46,651 nucleotides of DNA from NCBI GenBank assembly GCA_009841435.1, contig VXLW01000006.1, positions 1 through 46,651 on the forward strand, written 5' to 3'. The notes below the pieces were generated by a model. The model was not told the origin of the DNA. It saw only the letters and a list, made by a program, of their open reading frames with translations, and searched no databases. A program made the translations under genes and the position numbers. Positions 38,488 to 46,651 of the stretch are shown piece after piece; position 1 is the first letter of the stretch, and each line of letters opens with the position of its first letter. Source of the stretch: Dehalococcoidia bacterium. Its GTDB lineage: Bacteria; Chloroflexota; Dehalococcoidia; Tepidiformales; Tepidiformaceae.

Positions 38488-39720
38488 GTGACGACCGACC
38501 TGTTCAGCAACCCGAAGCGGTTTGGCGACATGACCTCGTGGCGCGAGGAGGCGCTCGCGCTTCACGCCAGTGGAGTGTTCCACCCGATCGAAGCGGAGGG
38601 CTTTGGCTCCTTCCGGGCAGTCATCGGCAGGGACGAGATCCTCGAGATCGAAGCGCAACACGAACTCTTCACGAACGGCCCGGAACCGATCCTGACGCAC
38701 GACGCGATCATCGCGATGCGGGCGCAGGGGGGACCGCGGGCGAAGACGCTCATCCACATGGACGACCCGGAGCACCGGAAGTACCGCATGCTCACGAACG
38801 ACTGGTTCAAGCCGGGCAGCGTGCGCCAGCTTCAGCCGCGGCTGGACGAGTTGAGCCGCAAGGCGCTCGCGACGCTGGAGCAAGGCGAGGGCGAGATCGA
38901 CTTCAACACGGAAGTCGCGCTCCCCTTCCCGCTTGAGGTCATCCTCGCGATTCTCGGGCTGCCGGAAGAGGACTACCCGCGGATGCTCCAGCTGACACAG
39001 GAGATGTTCGGCGCCAGCGACCCCGACTTCGTCCCCAAGGACCGCGACCCTGAGGACGTGCTGGCGGTGCTGCGGGACTTCTTCGAGTACTTCGCCACGC
39101 TGAGCGCGAACCGCCGGGCGAACCCGACCGACGATCTGGCGACTCAGATCGCCAATGGCCAGATCGACGGCGCCCCCATGCCGATTCTGGAGACGATGGG
39201 GTACTACCTGATCGTGGCCACCGCCGGGCACGACACGACCTCGGCGTCAATCGCCGAGGGGATGCGGCTGCTCGCGGAGAATCCCGACCAGCTGGCGCTC
39301 CTCAGGAGCAGGCCGGAGCTCATCCCGAACGCCATCGAGGAGCTTATCCGCATCGCCTCGCCCGTACGGCACTTCATGCGCACCGCGCAGGACGACACCG
39401 AAATAGCAGGGGAGCCGATCGCGAAGGGCGAGTGGCTGATGCTGTCGTACGCCGCCGCCAACCTGGACCCGCGAACGTTCGAGGATCCGCTGCGGTTCGA
39501 TGTCACGAGGAAGGCCGCCGAGCGGCAGATCGCCTTCGGCTACGGCGTGCATTACTGCCTCGGCGCCCATCTGGCGCGGCTGGAGATGTCGACGCTGTTC
39601 GGCCACCTGCTGCCGCGGCTGGAGTCGGTCGAGCTCGCGGGCGAGGTCACGACCTCGACCGCCACGTTCGTGAGCGGCATCAAGAGCCTGCCGATCCGCT
39701 ACACATTGACTGCTCCATAG
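38488..39720 (+). CDS. Cytochrome P450
   Basis: 410 aa, GTG start at 38488 with GGGAGGG ahead and a possible -10 TAGACT at 38461. Bacterial class I layout: I-helix ATAGHDTTS, ExxR in EELIR, PVRHFMRTA, and heme-binding FGYGVHYCLGAHLAR with Cys357. No fused reductase or ferredoxin, and none encoded nearby. It likely hydroxylates a hydrophobic substrate that the following flavoenzyme and epimerase process further. First gene of the plus-strand run to the window end. Confidence 0.95.
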   Translation: MTTDLFSNPKRFGDMTSWREEALALHASGVFHPIEAEGFGSFRAVIGRDEILEIEAQHELFTNGPEPILTHDAIIAMRAQGGPRAKTLIHMDDPEHRKYRMLTNDWFKPGSVRQLQPRLDELSRKALATLEQGEGEIDFNTEVALPFPLEVILAILGLPEEDYPRMLQLTQEMFGASDPDFVPKDRDPEDVLAVLRDFFEYFATLSANRRANPTDDLATQIANGQIDGAPMPILETMGYYLIVATAGHDTTSASIAEGMRLLAENPDQLALLRSRPELIPNAIEELIRIASPVRHFMRTAQDDTEIAGEPIAKGEWLMLSYAAANLDPRTFEDPLRFDVTRKAAERQIAFGYGVHYCLGAHLARLEMSTLFGHLLPRLESVELAGEVTTSTATFVSGIKSLPIRYTLTAP

Positions 39721-39739: not shown

Positions 39740-41695
39740 ATGTACGACAAGCTGTTCGAGCCGATCGACGTCGGCGGGGTCACCATCAAGAACCGGATCG
39801 TGCGGTCCCCGCACGGCACGGGGCTCTTCGGCGACGACTTCATCGCCTACCACGTGGCGCGGGCGAAGGGCGGGGTGGGCATGTCGACGGTATCGGCGAC
39901 GAGCGTCCACCCGAACGCTCCCGGGGCGATCCCGGTGTGGTCTGACGACTGCAAACCTTACCTGTCGAAGCTGGCGAACGCCGTGCATGAACACGGCATG
40001 AAGATGTTCCACCAGATCTACCACCCCGGCGCCTCCCAGGCGGAAATGGTGGGTGGGGCGGAAGCGTGGTCGGCGAGCGAGATCCCGAACTTCCTCGGGG
40101 GGGCCGTCGTACCGGTCGCGATCAGCAAGGGGCAGATCGGCGACCTCGTCGAGCACTTCGCCGGGGCGGCGCGGCGCATCTGCGAAGCGGGGCTCGATGG
40201 CGTCGACATCCACGCGTCGAGCGGCTACCTGCTGCACGAGTTCCTCTCCCCGGCGCTCAACCAGCGCGACGACGAGTACGGCGGCTCGCCCGAGAACCGC
40301 ATGCGCATCGTGCTCGAAGTGATCGACGCGATCCGCGGCGAGGTGGGCGACAGCGACTTCGCCGTGGGGGTGCGCCTGCCGAACGAGGACTACGTGCCCG
40401 GCGGCCTCACGGCCGAGCTGAACCGCCAGATCGCGGAGGCCGTCGACCCGCTGGTCGACTACGTCTCGCTTCACATGGGTTCGTACTGGCGCTTCCACAA
40501 GCTGATCGCGCCGACCGACGACCCGCTGGGCGTGGAGATGGCCCCGAACGAGACCATCCGCCCCGTGATCACGAAGCCGACGATCGTGGTCGGCCGCATC
40601 CTGACGGTGGACCACGCGCACGCGCTCGTGGAATCGGGTCAGGCGGACATGGTCTCGATGGTGCGGGCTTTGATCGCCGATCCGGAGCTGGTGAACAAAG
40701 CTCAACACGGGAACGAGGACCTCATCAGGCCGTGCATCGGGACGAACATGGGGTGTGTCGGGCGACTCATGAGCGGGCAGGGGCTGAGCTGCGTGGTCAA
40801 CGTGGCCGCCGGCCAGGAGGCGACGGTGACGCAGGAGCCCGAGATCCCCGCGGAGGAGCCGAGGCGGGTGTTCGTGGTCGGGGGAGGCCCGGCGGGGATG
40901 GAGGCGGCGCGGACGGCCGCCATCCGGGGGCACCACGTGCAACTGCACGAAGCCACGCAGAAGCTGGGCGGCCAGGTGAACATCGCGGCGAGCGCTCCCA
41001 AGCGGGGCGACGTCGGCGCGATCACCCACTGGCTGGGGGAGGAGCTGAAGCGCCTGCAGGTCGACGTCCGCCTGAACTCGCTGGTGGACATCGAGACTGT
41101 CATGGAAGCGGACGCAGACGTCGTGGTGCTGGCGGCCGGGGCCAGTCCCCGGGCGGACGGGTTCCAGGTGGCGACGCCGGCGGTCACCCTGACCGGCCAC
41201 GACCTGCCGCATGTGTACAACGCGCAAGACCTTCTCGGCTACGGCGACCCCGTCAACATCGAGGGGCCCGCGCTCGTCTTCGACGACACGGGCTCGTTCG
41301 AGGCGATCTCGGCGGCGGACGTGCTGCTGGAGGCGGGGGTACATGTGACCCTCGTCTCGCGCCTGAAGGACCTGGGCGAGAACCTGCCCTACCCGCCGGT
41401 GACGGTGGGGGCGGCGCGCGAACGGCTGATGTCGGGCGACTTCGACCTGATCGGCGGGCACTACCTCCAGGAGATCCGTCCGGGCGAGGTCGACATCGGC
41501 GTCCTGCACACGGACCGCGTGCGGACGATCCCGGCCAACACGGTGATCCTGGTGACGCACCACGAGCCCAACCGGTACCTCGCGACCGAGCTTGAGGACG
41601 AGGGCATCGAGGTGCACCAGGTCGGTGACGCGCAGGGTCGCAACAGCATTCGCAACGCGATCCACACCGGCGCGTTCCTCGGCAGGGAGCTGTAG
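39740..41695 (+). CDS. FMN/FAD enoate-reductase-type oxidoreductase missing one Fe-S cysteine
   Basis: 651 aa. N-terminal Old Yellow Enzyme-type barrel (KNRIVRSPHGTG, HQIYHPG, GVDIHASSGYLLHEFLSPALNQRDDEYGGS), then the cluster loop and a C-terminal FAD/NAD domain (VFVVGGGPAGMEAARTAA). Relatives (2,4-dienoyl-CoA reductase, trimethylamine dehydrogenase) bind a 4Fe-4S cluster with Cys-x2-Cys-x3-Cys-x11-Cys; here Cys332, Cys339 and Cys351 remain but the second position is Thr335. It may hold a 3Fe-4S or a labile cluster, or use another ligand. It follows the P450 by 19 bp. Confidence 0.92.
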   Translation: MYDKLFEPIDVGGVTIKNRIVRSPHGTGLFGDDFIAYHVARAKGGVGMSTVSATSVHPNAPGAIPVWSDDCKPYLSKLANAVHEHGMKMFHQIYHPGASQAEMVGGAEAWSASEIPNFLGGAVVPVAISKGQIGDLVEHFAGAARRICEAGLDGVDIHASSGYLLHEFLSPALNQRDDEYGGSPENRMRIVLEVIDAIRGEVGDSDFAVGVRLPNEDYVPGGLTAELNRQIAEAVDPLVDYVSLHMGSYWRFHKLIAPTDDPLGVEMAPNETIRPVITKPTIVVGRILTVDHAHALVESGQADMVSMVRALIADPELVNKAQHGNEDLIRPCIGTNMGCVGRLMSGQGLSCVVNVAAGQEATVTQEPEIPAEEPRRVFVVGGGPAGMEAARTAAIRGHHVQLHEATQKLGGQVNIAASAPKRGDVGAITHWLGEELKRLQVDVRLNSLVDIETVMEADADVVVLAAGASPRADGFQVATPAVTLTGHDLPHVYNAQDLLGYGDPVNIEGPALVFDDTGSFEAISAADVLLEAGVHVTLVSRLKDLGENLPYPPVTVGAARERLMSGDFDLIGGHYLQEIRPGEVDIGVLHTDRVRTIPANTVILVTHHEPNRYLATELEDEGIEVHQVGDAQGRNSIRNAIHTGAFLGREL

Positions 41696-41730: not shown

Positions 41731-42669
41731 ATGCGAGTAGCAGTTCTTGGCGGAAGCGGGTTCATCGGGCCGCGGGTGATGCGGCGGCTAGTGGAACACG
41801 GGCACGAGGTCCACTGCATGGACATCGCGCCGGAGGCGCCGGCGCTCGACCTGCTGCGTGACCGTGTCCAGATCACGCGTGGCGATATCACGCTCATGGA
41901 CGATGTGGTCGAAGCGCTCACGCTGAGCAAGCCCGACCGGGTCCTGAACCTCGCGTATGCGCTGGGGGCGGGCGAGAGTGACCCCCACCCGCAGGTGCGG
42001 CTGAACATTCTCGGGATGGACAACTGCTTCGAGGCAGCCCGCATCCTGGGAATCCGGCGGGTGGTGTACGCGAGCTCGCTGGCGGTCTACGGGCCGCAGC
42101 GTCTGCACGGCGAGCGCGCGGTGACCGAGGACGACCTCTGCCTCGGGACGGGCATCTACGCCGTCTCGAAGATCTTCAACGAGCACCAGGCGGAGTGGTA
42201 CAACCGCGCCTTCGACATGGCGATCACGGGCGTCCGGCCCGCGAATATCACGGGGCCGGACAAGGTTCGCGGGTCGATGAACCACGTGCAGTGCCAGGTG
42301 CTGCCGGCGCGGGGCGAGCCCGTCAGCTTCCCCTACCGGGACACGATGACGCTGCCGCTGAACGTCGAGGACATCGCCGAGGTGTTCCTGCGGGTGACGC
42401 TGGCGGAGGAGACGGCCTACCCGATCTACAACTCGGGCGGGAACTCCACGAGCCTGGGCGAGCTGGCAGGCATCGTGCGAGACTTCCTGCCGGACGCGGA
42501 GATCGCGTTCGACGAGGATGAGGGCGGACGTGATGCGTCGGGGCTCTTCCTGATGGACAACTCCCGTCTCGTGGAGGAGTTCGAGGTCGAGTACGCCCCG
42601 TTCCGGCAGCGCGTGCTGGAGACCCTGAACGAAGTGCGGCGCGTCGAGGGGCTCCCGCCGATCGGCTAG
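41731..42669 (+). CDS. NAD-dependent epimerase/dehydratase (extended SDR)
   Basis: 312 aa. Rossmann motif GGSGFIG at the N-terminus, VYASSLAVYGP and the catalytic YxxxK in YAVSK; GVRPANITGP and YNSGGNSTSLGELAGIVRDFLP are usual for sugar-epimerase-like SDRs. It acts on a hydroxyl or keto group with NAD(P). In this cluster a non-sugar substrate, shared with the P450 and enoate reductase, is equally likely. Confidence 0.9.
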   Translation: MRVAVLGGSGFIGPRVMRRLVEHGHEVHCMDIAPEAPALDLLRDRVQITRGDITLMDDVVEALTLSKPDRVLNLAYALGAGESDPHPQVRLNILGMDNCFEAARILGIRRVVYASSLAVYGPQRLHGERAVTEDDLCLGTGIYAVSKIFNEHQAEWYNRAFDMAITGVRPANITGPDKVRGSMNHVQCQVLPARGEPVSFPYRDTMTLPLNVEDIAEVFLRVTLAEETAYPIYNSGGNSTSLGELAGIVRDFLPDAEIAFDEDEGGRDASGLFLMDNSRLVEEFEVEYAPFRQRVLETLNEVRRVEGLPPIG

Positions 42670-42724: not shown

Positions 42725-43840
42725 ATGCTGACCGACCTCGACGACACCCTCCTTCACCAGGCCCCACTCCCGTTCGCGTTCGTGGGCACCAGCGACCACC
42801 GGTTCTACGACCGCTACTGGTTCGAGGCGGTAGCGCCGGACGGTGGGGCGGGCGCGCTCGTGAGCATGGGGCGCTACCCCAACATGAACGTCCTCGACGG
42901 ATTCGTGGCCGCACAGACGGAGGGCAAGCAATACAACGTCCGCTTCTCGCGAGAGTTGCGGCCGGCCTTCGCGGAGACGAAGGTTGGGGGTCTCAGCGTA
43001 TCGCTGGTCGAGCCGCTGAGGGTGCTTCGCCTCAGGCTAGAGGAGGGCGACCATCCCCTCTCCTGCGACCTGACGTGGACGGGCAGCCTCCCGGCGCGGC
43101 TGGAGGACCACAGCTTCTCCCGTTCGCAGGGGCGGGTCGTCTCGGACATGTACCGCTTCGCGCAGGTGGGGACGGTGGGCGGCTCGCTGAGCATCGACGG
43201 TCACGACTTCGCGGCGGCCGACTGGTTCGGGGCGCGGGACCACTCGTGGGGGGTGCGTCCCGGTGTGGGGGGCTTCGAGCCGGTGACGAGCGGTGCGGCA
43301 GGCGGGGCGGGAGGACGGCTGTTCATCTGGCTCGCGTTCCGAGTGGACGAGTTCGGAGGTTATGTGCAGCTCCATGAGGACCACATGGGGAGACGGCAGT
43401 CGCTCGACGGTGCGCTGGTCTGGCCCGCGGAGGCGGGGCGGCCGGAGCTTCGTATCGTCGATATGGAACACGACCTGACCTTCCACGAGGGAACGCGCGC
43501 CTTCAGCCATGCGCGGCTGGTCCTGACGACCGAGGACGAGAAGCGCTGGGAGGTGGAGGCGGAGCCGCTGTTCACCGCCTGGGCGTACAAGGGGACGGGG
43601 TACGGCACCGGCTACAACGACGAGAAGGGGCTCGGTGCGTATCGGAGCGAGTACGTCGAGGAGACGGACGTGTACGACGTTTCACACCCGGAGATCGTGC
43701 GGAATCTCGATGGCGCCCAGGTCCCCTCGGGCCACCGCGAGCAGCCGGTGCGACTCTCGGTGAACGGGAAGCCCGGCTTCGGGCACCTGCCCATCATGGT
43801 GATGGGACCGAACCAGCGGTACGGGCTCCAGGCGCAGTAG
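42725..43840 (+). CDS. AttH/CrtC-like lipocalin-fold protein (DUF7064/DUF7065-like)
   Basis: 371 aa, no signal peptide. Two beta-rich halves; HRFYDRYWFEAVAPDGGAG at the start, RLEDHSFSRSQG in the middle and DWFGARDHSWGVRP are typical of the AttH/CrtC/DUF7064 group, whose members include hydratases on carotenoids and proteins of lipid or terpene breakdown clusters. GKPGFGHLPIMVMG near the end. Exact reaction unknown. The APH-fold gene follows 2 bp after its stop. Confidence 0.7.
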   Translation: MLTDLDDTLLHQAPLPFAFVGTSDHRFYDRYWFEAVAPDGGAGALVSMGRYPNMNVLDGFVAAQTEGKQYNVRFSRELRPAFAETKVGGLSVSLVEPLRVLRLRLEEGDHPLSCDLTWTGSLPARLEDHSFSRSQGRVVSDMYRFAQVGTVGGSLSIDGHDFAAADWFGARDHSWGVRPGVGGFEPVTSGAAGGAGGRLFIWLAFRVDEFGGYVQLHEDHMGRRQSLDGALVWPAEAGRPELRIVDMEHDLTFHEGTRAFSHARLVLTTEDEKRWEVEAEPLFTAWAYKGTGYGTGYNDEKGLGAYRSEYVEETDVYDVSHPEIVRNLDGAQVPSGHREQPVRLSVNGKPGFGHLPIMVMGPNQRYGLQAQ

Positions 43841-43842
43841 CG

Positions 43843-44910
43843 ATGGTCGACGCAGGGGCGGTGGCGGGGTATTTCGCCGAACGGCTCGACGAGGCAGTCA
43901 CGGTCAGCTCCCTCAAGCAGACGTTCCCGGGGATGTCGCGGGAGACGTGGATCGTCGAGGCGGAGGTGGGTGAACGGGCCGCGAAGCGGCGCCGGGACCT
44001 CGTGCTGCGCATCGACCTGCCGAGCGGGGGGATCGTGCCGCTGCCGCTAAAGACGGAGTGGGAGGTCTACGTACGGCTGTGGCCGTCGCCAGTTCCCGTG
44101 GCCGAGCCCCTCTGGTACGACGAGGGGCTCGCCTTCGCCGAAGGGCGGCCGCACATGGTCCGCGAGCTTGTCGAGGGGGCCACTAACGTCCCGGACCTGA
44201 TGGCGCCCGGCGCGGAGGGGGACGCACTCCGGCGCAGCGTGGCGTTCGAGCATGCGGAGAAGCTCGCCCTGGTGCACTCGCTGGACTGGAAACAGTACGG
44301 GCTCGACGAGGTGCTGGCCGCACCCAAGTCGCCGGCGGACGCCATCCGGCAGGACTTCGAGATGTGGAAGGAAATCTGGTTCGAGTGCCGTTCCGCCCCG
44401 TACCCGGAGATCACCGACGCCCTCTACTGGCTGGAGGAGCAGATCCCGACGGATAGCCCGCGCACCTCGCTGATCAAGGGGAACAACGGCATCGGCGAGG
44501 AGATCTGGCGAGACGGGAAGATCGTGGCGATGAGCGACTGGGAGCTGGCCGCGCTCGGGGACGCCGCGCAGGACTGGGCCTTCTCACAGGGGATGCTCGG
44601 CCTCTGGGACCCCGACGAAACCCTGGCTCACTACGAGGAGGCGGCAGGCTTCAAGCTGTCGCCTCGCACGATGGCGTTCAGCCAGCTTTTCATCGCGTTC
44701 AAGTCGACGGTCTGCCTGAACAGTGCGCTGCGGGGGTTCATGGACGGCCGCGACCGCCGTCCGGGGGTTGCGGTGATGGGCATCTCGAGCCCGCGGAACG
44801 CCGCCGGGAGGCTCGCGTCCGTCGTGGGGATGGAGCTCGAAGAGGCGGCCCGCGCGCTCGCGCCGCGAGGACCGGACGGCAGCCCGTACATCAGGGGGGA
44901 ACGATCGTGA
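43843..44910 (+). CDS. APH-fold phosphotransferase-family protein with degenerate catalytic loop
   Basis: 355 aa. The aminoglycoside phosphotransferase/choline-kinase fold is recognisable: RDLVLRIDLP (Lys-strand region), FEHAEKLALVHSLDW and SDWELAALGDAAQDWAF with the metal Asp232. The catalytic loop that normally reads HGDxxxxN is KGNNGIGE here (212-219), so His, the catalytic Asp and the metal Asn are all changed. Relatives near acyl-CoA dehydrogenase and steroid genes usually keep HGD. It may be a pseudokinase that binds substrate or nucleotide, or use other chemistry. Stop overlaps the next start. Confidence 0.85.
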   Translation: MVDAGAVAGYFAERLDEAVTVSSLKQTFPGMSRETWIVEAEVGERAAKRRRDLVLRIDLPSGGIVPLPLKTEWEVYVRLWPSPVPVAEPLWYDEGLAFAEGRPHMVRELVEGATNVPDLMAPGAEGDALRRSVAFEHAEKLALVHSLDWKQYGLDEVLAAPKSPADAIRQDFEMWKEIWFECRSAPYPEITDALYWLEEQIPTDSPRTSLIKGNNGIGEEIWRDGKIVAMSDWELAALGDAAQDWAFSQGMLGLWDPDETLAHYEEAAGFKLSPRTMAFSQLFIAFKSTVCLNSALRGFMDGRDRRPGVAVMGISSPRNAAGRLASVVGMELEEAARALAPRGPDGSPYIRGERS

Positions 44911-45413
44911 GACCCAGCACGAAGGAACTGCTCGACTCAATTGCGGAGGCGCTGGACTCGCGCGTGGCCCCGACCGTGACGGACCCGTGGGCGGCGAGCT
45001 CGCTGCGGAGCATCGGCACGCTGCTCAATCATCTGTCCGTCCGCGTCGAGAGCGAGCTCACGATCCTCGCGGAGGGGAACGCCGACCTTCGCGAGGTGCT
45101 GGCGGACGCCTGCGACCGGCTGGAAGGTCGGGCGACGCCCAGCCGTCCCTCGATGCGAGCGGACATGCAGGCGTTGCTCCTGGAGATGGACTCGCGGGGC
45201 ACAGACGGCGTGGCAACGGTGGCGCTGCTGGAGGAAGCGAGCAGGGCCCTGAACGAACAGACCGAAAGGCTGGTGCGGGTCGTTCACGAAGACCGGGGAT
45301 CGCTGGGAGACGGGGTTCACGAGGAGCTGCTGGGGTCACTCCGTCGGTACTTCGAACGCCAGCGGGAGCGGGAGGCGCCGCTGTACGAGGCGCTCGCCGG
45401 CCCGATGTTCTGA
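44907..45413 (+). CDS. Helical hypothetical protein between APH-like and PEP-enzyme genes
   Basis: 168 aa; GTG overlaps the APH-like stop (GTGA). Almost wholly helical by eye (TKELLDSIAEALDS, MQALLLEMDSRG, ALLEEASRALNEQTERLVRVV, LLGSLRRYFERQREREAPLYEAL). No signal or membrane segment, no cysteines beyond one. Family not recognised. Position suggests an accessory subunit of the APH-like protein or PEP-utilizing enzyme. Confidence 0.75.
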   Translation: MRPSTKELLDSIAEALDSRVAPTVTDPWAASSLRSIGTLLNHLSVRVESELTILAEGNADLREVLADACDRLEGRATPSRPSMRADMQALLLEMDSRGTDGVATVALLEEASRALNEQTERLVRVVHEDRGSLGDGVHEELLGSLRRYFERQREREAPLYEALAGPMF

Positions 45414-45440
45414 GTTGGGCAGCCGGAGGATGATGAGCAG

Positions 45441-46651
45441 ATGACCGAGATCGAATTCGTCCTGCCCGACCCGGAGCTCGAGCAGTACACCTGGGTGTAC
45501 GAGAACGAGCACGGTCCGGCCTCCCAGCCACCACTCACGCGGGAGCCGGGCTTTGGACCCCCGCCGGAGCCGGGCGCTCCACCCTCCCGACTGATCATCA
45601 ACGGCTACAACTACTTCCGCTCGGGTCCGACGGGGGAGATGCCGAGCTCCTTCGACCTGCCCGATCTCGGGGGGGCGACCGCGCTCGAGGCCTGGAACGA
45701 CAAGTGGCTGCCGCAGGTGGACGCGCTGTTCGACGAGCTGTCCGGCTTCGACGCCACCGCAGTCGGGGAGGGGGCGTGGCAGGAGGTTCTCGACGGCCAG
45801 GCGTCCGAGTTCCGGCGAGTGTTCGCGGGGGTCCACGGCGAGTGCGTCCTGACCTCGGGGCAGCTGGCCCGGGACTTCGTCGATGCGTACTGCGAGGTCC
45901 TCGGCGAGGACCGACGGGACGACGGCCACGCCATCCTGCAAGGCTTCCCGAACCAGACCCTCGACCGTGCGATTGCGCTGTGGGAGCTCGGACGAGAGGT
46001 TCGTGCCGACGCTGAGTTGCGGGCGGTGGTCGAGGAGGGCACAGGCGTTGGGCATGCCGCGTTCAACCGGCGCCTTGAGGGTTTCCTCGAGGAGTTCGGC
46101 CACACGATCGACGCGCAGGTTCCAGATGCGCCCACGTGGCGGGAAGATCCGCGTCCGGCGCTCGACCTCGTCCTTCGCTATGCGGACGGGCCCGAAGATG
46201 CGTCCCCATTCCGGGCCGCGGAGGCGCAGGTGGCCCGGCGGCAAGAGTTGGAGGCGGAGCTGGAGGCGCTCGTGATGAGCGACCAGCGCGTGCGCGAGTT
46301 GCTGGACAGGCTCCCGGGGGCGCAGGAGCTGCTGCCAGTTCGCGAGGACCACAACACGCTCTGCGACCAGCGGCTGGGGGCGGCCTCGCGCTACCGCTGG
46401 CTGAGCATCGGCAGGCTGTTGCTGGAGCGGGGGCTCGCGGAGGAGGCCGGGGACGTCTTCTACTTCACGCTGGATGAGTTGCGCGAGGCGCTGGAGAGCG
46501 GCAGCGCTCCGGAGAGCCGCGCCCTTGAGGAGCGCCGCCGGGAGCAGGCGGCCTTCCGGGCGGTGCAGCCACCGCCGGTCCTCGGACGGCCGCTCGCCGG
46601 CGAGGCAAGCGAGGCAGGGGTGCTGCGGGGGACGGGGGCTCGGATATCTGG
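45441..46651 (+). CDS. PEP-utilizing enzyme-like protein, partial (runs off right edge)
   Basis: At least 403 aa from the ATG at 45441. The N-terminus (EQYTWVYENEHGPASQPPLT) is followed by a helical region LDGQASEFRRVFAGVHGECVLTSGQLARDFVDAY, then LEGFLEEFGHTIDAQVPDAPTWREDPRP and ASRYRWLSIGRLLLERGLAEEAGDVFYFTLDEL. This matches the central, substrate-binding helical region of rifampin-phosphotransferase/PEP-synthase-like proteins; the swivelling His domain would lie beyond the window. There is no ATP-grasp domain at the N-terminus, so a nucleotide-binding partner would have to be separate. Confidence 0.75.
   Translation, partial: MTEIEFVLPDPELEQYTWVYENEHGPASQPPLTREPGFGPPPEPGAPPSRLIINGYNYFRSGPTGEMPSSFDLPDLGGATALEAWNDKWLPQVDALFDELSGFDATAVGEGAWQEVLDGQASEFRRVFAGVHGECVLTSGQLARDFVDAYCEVLGEDRRDDGHAILQGFPNQTLDRAIALWELGREVRADAELRAVVEEGTGVGHAAFNRRLEGFLEEFGHTIDAQVPDAPTWREDPRPALDLVLRYADGPEDASPFRAAEAQVARRQELEAELEALVMSDQRVRELLDRLPGAQELLPVREDHNTLCDQRLGAASRYRWLSIGRLLLERGLAEEAGDVFYFTLDELREALESGSAPESRALEERRREQAAFRAVQPPPVLGRPLAGEASEAGVLRGTGARIS

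Follow-up and report, generated by a model that had tools for sequence, protein, structure and literature searches.

The window analysed here is a complete contig (C117, 46,651 bases; GenBank VXLW01000006.1, assembly GCA_009841435.1) of a 2.7-Mb genome from a Dehalococcoidia bacterium (G000, 90% complete). At its right end, seven genes run in the same direction (+ strand), with a cytochrome P450 gene first and a phosphoenolpyruvate (PEP)-utilizing gene, hereafter the PEP-type gene, last at the contig edge. The subject of this report is the distal part of the run, which encodes a 25-phosphosteroid-lyase-like protein, a protein of the aminoglycoside phosphotransferase (APH) fold with an altered catalytic loop, a small helical protein, and the PEP-type protein. 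A first-pass annotation had described the last three as tightly spaced or overlapping open reading frames (ORFs) on the + strand, and their coordinates were confirmed. The lyase-like gene ends at 43840 and the APH gene starts at 43843, leaving 2 bases between them; the APH and helical genes overlap by 4 bases, and a 27-base gap separates the helical gene from the PEP-type gene. The features concerned are as follows.

42725–43840, + strand: 25-phosphosteroid-lyase-like protein of the Rv3169 family (NCBIfam NF053593, Rv3169_fam, 333.9 bits, cut-off 150)
43843–44910, + strand: APH-fold protein with a rewired catalytic loop (KG-type), 355 aa (PF01636, E 1.4e-6, over the cut-off)
44476–44502, + strand: rewired loop K212-G-N-N-G-I-G-E-E220 in place of HGD....N (two alignments, one of 34 KG-type rows)
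44536–44544, + strand: kept motif D232-W-E234, invariant in 34/34 aligned KG-type rows
44907–45413, + strand: all-helical partner protein, 168 aa, LvaB-like by gene position
45441–46651, + strand, with the swivel on contig C39: predicted HpeH/PpsA-like substrate-binding part of a two-component dikinase (rifampin phosphotransferase (RPH), PRK08296, and PEP-synthase models)

KG-type APH proteins and their closest gene partners

The HGD....N loop of APH-fold kinases provides the catalytic Asp and a metal-binding Asn, and the Asp of the DWE motif also binds metal. In the window protein, this loop reads KGN....E, a replacement seen in the first-pass annotation and borne out by PF01636 and the alignments. 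The AlphaFold model of the protein (pLDDT 92.6) has structural neighbours in the PDB that include 3dxp (E 2e-16), 3ats (Rv3168), and 9fsg/9ft5 (25-HSK with steroid), with TMq values of up to 0.70 for 25-HSK (9ft5). At the loop, 25-HSK has CWGDARPGN, Rv3168 has LWGDARVGN, and the window protein has IKGNNGIGEE. The window APH protein groups with the 25-HSK/Rv3168/ACAD11 kinases, and together with the helical protein it accompanies a relative of the 25-phosphosteroid lyase; the earlier assignment of both proteins to a PEP synthase is not supported.

A genome scan with the KG-type alignment yielded 39 loci, whose genes were called with our own ORF script. The hosts are Chloroflexota, Alpha- and Gammaproteobacteria, Paraburkholderia, Actinomycetes, Acidimicrobiia, and one metagenome-assembled genome (MAG) labelled Kuenenia. 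The scan patterns were built from KG-type sequences, so that this number does not show how common the KG-type is among APH proteins as a whole, and the 39 loci include contigs already met in profile searches, namely six of the window genus (L099–L102, L104, and L105) plus L103, L113, and L120. Lys replaces His in all 39 loci, and the position of the catalytic Asp is occupied by Asn in 17, Thr in 20, Gln in one (L111), and Asp in one (L120). Both the catalytic Asp and the Asn are replaced in 38 of the 39, as they are in the window; L120, which keeps both, looks from its loop like an intermediate. The alignment covered 34 KG-type main proteins out of a possible 40, which come from the 39 loci and the window. 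In it, K212, G213, G216, E220, and the SDWE segment were invariant, and N215, G218, and E219 were conserved to at least 90%, giving KG[N/T]NGxGEE...SDWE as the near-invariant motif of these proteins.

The same replacements would also suit a different view, in which the KG-type APH is a dead pseudokinase that binds or presents the substrate together with the helical protein, while a dikinase composed of a swivel protein and a free ATP-grasp protein carries out the transfer and feeds the lyase. We consider this unlikely, though not negligibly so. The loss of both catalytic residues in nearly every locus speaks for it, but the loop is near-invariant across phyla and retains a metal-capable Glu and the DWE motif, unlike what decay would leave. 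Because of this conservation, the KG-type loop is regarded as a conserved rewiring, not a product of decay, and its Glu could replace Asn as a metal ligand. Indeed, in a tree that also contained HG-type rows from the same loci (with DWE at residue 150 or later) and eight paralogue rows, the KG-type rows formed a single clade of 37 with an SH-aLRT value of 100. Two rows in this clade, which are second copies from L113 and L115, bear the motif though they were unlabelled in the tree run. The clade spans Chloroflexota, Pseudomonadota, and Actinomycetota. Narrow literature searches, among others on pseudokinases and the APH family, covering few subscription journals and judged in part by titles and the openings of abstracts, found no family like the KG-type.

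A second degenerate APH–helical pair is located on contig C93 of the window genome (L055 9035–10500) and on G003:C3 (L052, 4920 onwards). Its loop reads QGQVGPGQ, its DWE is kept, and an enoyl-CoA-hydratase-like gene follows. The C93 pair branches outside the KG clade and was thus rejected as KG-type.

The helical protein has no match in Pfam (searched up to E 10) or NCBIfam, and its predicted structure (pLDDT 94.3) is all-helical with five main helices, in agreement with its original description as an unrecognised helical protein. A known fold was rejected, as none of 156 Foldseek matches against the PDB (E ≤ 10) reached E ≤ 0.001. Using an iterated hidden Markov model search, the helical gene was found directly 3' of the KG-type APH gene (within ~70 bases) in 37 of the 39 loci; the two others are L120, where 77 bases of contig remain, and L129, where none was found. 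It also lies 3' of an HGD....N-type APH in L117, L127, and L132. The alignment of the family has 35 rows: the helical protein of the window and 34 out of the 42 others found. LvaB is presumably a member of DUF6285, and a profile search of G000 for this family (PF19802, up to E 10) was negative, so the helical protein was not assigned to DUF6285/LvaB. Separately, an open frame of Nocardia (L140, 1–1755) joins an APH with an intact HGD....N and a DUF6285 segment. This frame is probably an LvaA–LvaB-like fusion, and it backs the pairing of APH proteins with small partners in general.

The lyase-like protein matches the 25-phosphosteroid lyase structures 9fzn, 9g2i, and 9g4c with an E value of 6.9e-37 across residues 2–356. 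It belongs to the known Rv3169/25-phosphosteroid lyase (25-PSL) family, and phosphate elimination is its predicted activity. Genomes of the window genus (1.9–3.1 Mb) have 6 or 7 matches to this family each (9/9 genomes), and all nine contain a tandem pair of such genes (e.g., G000:C38 and G003:C3). Of the 36 KG-type loci with at least 1.5 kb of upstream sequence, 29 contain a lyase-family gene, and in 20 such a gene stands directly upstream of the APH gene. The order lyase–kinase–helical is also found with an intact HGD....N kinase (L117, L127, and L132).

The PEP-type protein and the free ATP-grasp protein

Rifampin phosphotransferase and PEP-synthase-like models match the PEP-type protein of the window with their C-terminal halves, leaving the ATP-grasp part unmatched, and the protein aligns to residues 561–745 of 5fbs. 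Its description as a PEP-utilizing enzyme without an ATP-grasp domain was therefore correct. The remainder of the gene is present in the first 305 bases of contig C39 of the same genome, where the swivelling His domain is followed by a stop and then by a convergent, presumably DinB-like, gene, an arrangement shared with G003. Thus, the swivelling domain looked for past the right edge is there, and an ordinary ATP-grasp domain further along the same chain is excluded. Full-length orthologues from G003, G006, G001, G007, G005, and G055 are 501–505 aa long, and all six end with the swivel motif TDAGGALSH, which is also present in the C39 head. The protein of G036 has TGTGSLLAH, departing from the GG of the T/SxxGGxxxH motif. 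One orthologue (L041, 501 aa) matches RIF_Ptrans over residues 117–501 (against 465–864) and PF00391 (E 9.1e-20), with no PF01326 match. Since the orthologues end in the swivel motif, C39 supplies the same end before a stop, and the orthologue scanned lacks an ATP-grasp domain, the PEP-type protein is best described as an HpeH/CreH/PpsA-like substrate-plus-swivel half of a two-component dikinase, with a predicted phosphorylating activity.

To date, HpeHI, CreHI, and PpsAB have been published as two-component small-molecule dikinases (PMC12167813); split kinases resembling PEP synthase or RPH are thus not undescribed, as the first-pass annotation had supposed. Like these systems, the window genome joins the swivel and an RPH-type substrate domain in a chain that lacks ATP-grasp, and it has the T/SxxGGxxxH motif and a separate ATP-grasp protein. 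Unlike them, its ATP-grasp gene is on another contig, and one was found per four swivel proteins. The window-type protein has ~500 aa, whereas HpeH has a mass of 71 kDa.

The separate ATP-grasp protein, which had been named as something to search for, is encoded on contig C43 (317 aa, PF01326, E 1.4e-84). Among the matches listed for G000, four free swivel proteins (C117/C39, C46, C54, and C64) stand against this single free ATP-grasp protein; one PPDK-like frame is also present. All nine genomes of the genus have one free-type ATP-grasp match apiece among the matches listed, non-adjacent to the PEP gene, and 2–5 swivel matches over the cut-off outside the long PPDK-like frame; the protein sequences behind these counts were inspected for G000 and, in part, for G003. 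G003 has a further partial PF01326 match in a 1023-aa frame on C5. The C43 protein probably serves several swivel proteins. A closer arrangement is seen in G036, where a free ATP-grasp gene lies 4 bases downstream of the PEP gene; in the tree, the PEP protein of this genome branches as sister to the remaining window-type rows (SH-aLRT 99 for the grouping). Swivel and PF01326 matches are also close together in G019 (on opposite strands), G040, G051, and G056, all with other swivel subfamilies.

Gene content across genomes

Within the window genus, seven genomes out of nine (G000–G003 and G005–G007) encode the KG-type APH as well as the window-type PEP protein, and the other two (G004 and G008) lack both. 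The gene set within the genus is not due to chance. However, the three genes are not an obligate unit. The PEP gene of G005 is on one contig with the P450 and old-yellow-enzyme (OYE) genes, and the lyase, APH, and helical genes are on another. G012, G010, and G037 (82, 78, and 54% complete) have the APH with no match to the window-type PEP, and G055 and G036 (97% complete each) have the window-type PEP without the APH. Hence, the proposal of a single three-gene module was rejected, the genes being separable in both directions, and in sphingomonads as well. The expected co-occurrence stood for the APH and helical genes and failed for the PEP-type gene, which is near only eight of the 39 KG-type loci (five from the window genus); the other 31 have none in the stretch examined. 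Outside the genus, it is near three of 33 loci (L116 and the two Actinomadura loci, L117 and L121). Locus flanks reached at most 9 kb and were shorter at contig ends, so that absences there carry little weight.

This distribution bears on the original proposal that a single PEP-synthase-like enzyme is split over the APH, helical, and PEP proteins. Tight gene spacing and a conserved order in the window genus fit it. However, the swivel gene is by itself a complete HpeH-like half, a free ATP-grasp protein exists, and the APH occurs without a PEP-type gene in most loci. The proposal is largely refuted, and we regard it as highly improbable.

The pseudokinase alternative is also affected, as it requires a dikinase to do the transfer. 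The joint presence and absence of the two genes in the window genus is in line with it, as are two Actinomadura genomes in which three of five (G065:C34) and four of six (G069:C21) PF00391 matches are on the contig of the KG module. By contrast, Novosphingobium lentum and Sphingosinicella terrae (the sphingomonads G061 and G068) have the module with PF00391 only in frames of 760–937 aa, and a PEP-type gene is rarely near the loci outside the window genus, both of which count against it. A third proteobacterial genome with the module, that of Paraburkholderia unamae, has one PF00391 frame of 584 aa. The clustering of PEP-type genes with the module in Actinomadura is real and involves a different swivel subfamily; a shared history with the swivel genes of the window was rejected on this ground, based on a quick tree search with one long-branch row. 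G069:C21 (58995–110027) is from Actinomadura physcomitrii, and both Actinomadura contigs have a PpdK-like ATP-grasp plus swivel frame of 511–527 aa. A fused ATP-grasp plus swivel protein of 858 aa is encoded ~3.9 kb downstream of the KG-type APH in a gammaproteobacterial MAG (L116 11458–14034).

Another possibility is that the PEP-type gene is a mere neighbour, phosphorylating some other, e.g., phenolic, compound at a separate step of the catabolic cluster with no mechanistic tie to the lyase–APH–helical genes. The contig separation in G005, the genomes having either gene without the other, and the different subfamily of the swivel proteins near the module in Actinomadura are consistent with this, and phenols are the substrates of the two-component dikinases published so far (PMC12167813). 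Against it stands the joint presence or absence in 9/9 genomes of the genus, the unlinked G005 included, although this reflects few independent events. We doubt this explanation to the same degree as the pseudokinase one.

Collectively, APH–helical genes recur, usually with a lyase gene, and a PEP-type gene is seldom near; thus, the APH–helical pair makes up the recurrent core, and the dikinase half accompanies it in some lineages. A P450 match is present in 18 of the 39 KG-type loci. In the window, the P450 gene leads the run, an order kept in G003, G006, and G001. The remaining features of the run are listed below.

38488–39720, + strand: cytochrome P450, first in the co-directional run (PF00067, E 3.3e-23)
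39740–41695, + strand: OYE-like flavoprotein, which we take to be of the 2,4-dienoyl-CoA-reductase kind (PF00724, E 8e-60; Pyr_redox_2, E 3.4e-11)
41731–42669, + strand: NAD-dependent epimerase/3beta-HSD-like dehydrogenase (PF01370, E 3.6e-32; PF01073, E 1.9e-14)
46640–46651, + strand: terminal 12 bases of the contig, probably a contig-edge artefact (orthologues and the C39 head differ after ...GGACGGGGGC)

The OYE-like match in G005 (L046 6518–8472) is broken across two frames at residue 95/96.

Two proposed units and a putative ATP-dependent dehydration

The reading we prefer, to which we give slightly less than an even chance, is that two units lie side by side: a phosphorylation–elimination module with a rewired kinase and one half of a two-component dikinase. 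The setting would be a catabolic run for lipids or for compounds of the terpenoid/steroid type, and the lyase, P450, and OYE neighbours point to a steroid or terpenoid substrate class. The P450 or an earlier step would produce a hindered, probably tertiary, alcohol. In the first unit (42725–45413), the KG-type APH and its helical partner would activate this alcohol with ATP, the helical protein serving the kinase as LvaB serves LvaA. The lyase-like protein would then remove the phosphate to form an alkene, an ATP-dependent dehydration like that by 25-HSK and 25-PSL. The KG-type APH is favoured as the activating enzyme because, with the helical protein, it is the kinase-like element common to the loci. 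In its loop, Glu would replace the metal-binding Asn; since the catalytic Asp is gone, another residue would act as the base, or the subunit would only bind the substrate. The second unit (45441 onwards) would provide the substrate-plus-swivel half of a dikinase, with the ATP-grasp half coming from C43.

Each part of this scheme has published counterparts. In Sterolibacterium denitrificans, 25-HSK transfers phosphate to the tertiary C25 alcohol, and removal of this phosphate by a lyase has been proposed (PMC8449060, PMC11061730); in 2021, the lyase gene was still reported as unknown, and PMC8449060 gives no candidate near 25-HSK. The window resembles the 25-HSK/25-phosphosteroid lyase tandem (PDB 9fsg, 9fzn) in the near-full-length homology of the lyase, the APH fold, and the kinase–lyase logic. 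It differs from that of S. denitrificans in that the genes are adjacent, the loop is KGN....E instead of WGD....N, and an extra helical protein is present. According to PMC6692424, reporting Rand 2017, a pull-down linked the small LvaB of Pseudomonas putida to the kinase LvaA, both being needed and acting on 4-hydroxyvaleryl-CoA. LvaA–LvaB and the kinase domain of ACAD10/11 share with the window an APH-type kinase and phosphorylation before elimination (PMC6692424, PMC11342911), and LvaAB also has a small partner protein encoded in the operon of the kinase. Unlike LvaA and ACAD10/11, the window kinase lacks the catalytic Asp and Asn, and its lyase belongs to the Rv3169 type rather than to the acyl-CoA dehydrogenases. 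Rv3168 (APH) and Rv3169 of Mycobacterium tuberculosis form an operon (PMC5340868), so that APH and Rv3169-family proteins are side by side there too. Yet, Rv3168 keeps WGD....N, and by gene numbers the APH comes first, whereas the lyase family comes first in the window.

Several observations weigh against the two-unit reading. The catalytic Asp is present in 25-HSK and Rv3168 and absent in the KG-type APH, which, for this reason, may not perform the first step. The suggested link to steroids is one of homology. A comparison of the helical protein with an extended DUF6285 using hhalign gave a probability of 54% over 43 N-terminal columns with only five DUF6285 sequences, and restricting it to the Pfam core of DUF6285 gave no useful alignment. 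No PEP or swivel gene was seen in the stretch read around the C43 ATP-grasp gene. Finally, G055 encodes a PEP protein of the window type (62% identity), and its sole PF01326 match among the matches listed is in a 786-aa frame; thus, a free partner is not always found.

A bolder form of the preferred reading, which we put forward as a somewhat unlikely proposition, is that the KG-type is a new, Asp-independent catalytic class of APH proteins. With an invariant Lys, a Glu–Glu pair, and an obligate helical subunit, it would activate hindered alcohols and pass the product to a phosphosteroid-lyase-type enzyme, and the window genus would add interchangeable swivel proteins sharing one free ATP-grasp protein.

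The new element is the KG-type clade, and the dikinase half belongs to a published kind, with an unlinked and possibly shared ATP-grasp protein. If the two-unit reading is true, ATP-dependent dehydration, described in the literature on anaerobic sterol degradation, would occur in operon form across many bacterial catabolic clusters and in uncultured Chloroflexota. One ATP-grasp protein for several swivel proteins would turn the two-component dikinase into a plug-in system. The KG-type family, which crosses phyla and has exchanged its Asp for a near-invariant loop, offers a clean test of either re-engineered phosphoryl transfer or a conserved pseudokinase role in metabolism.

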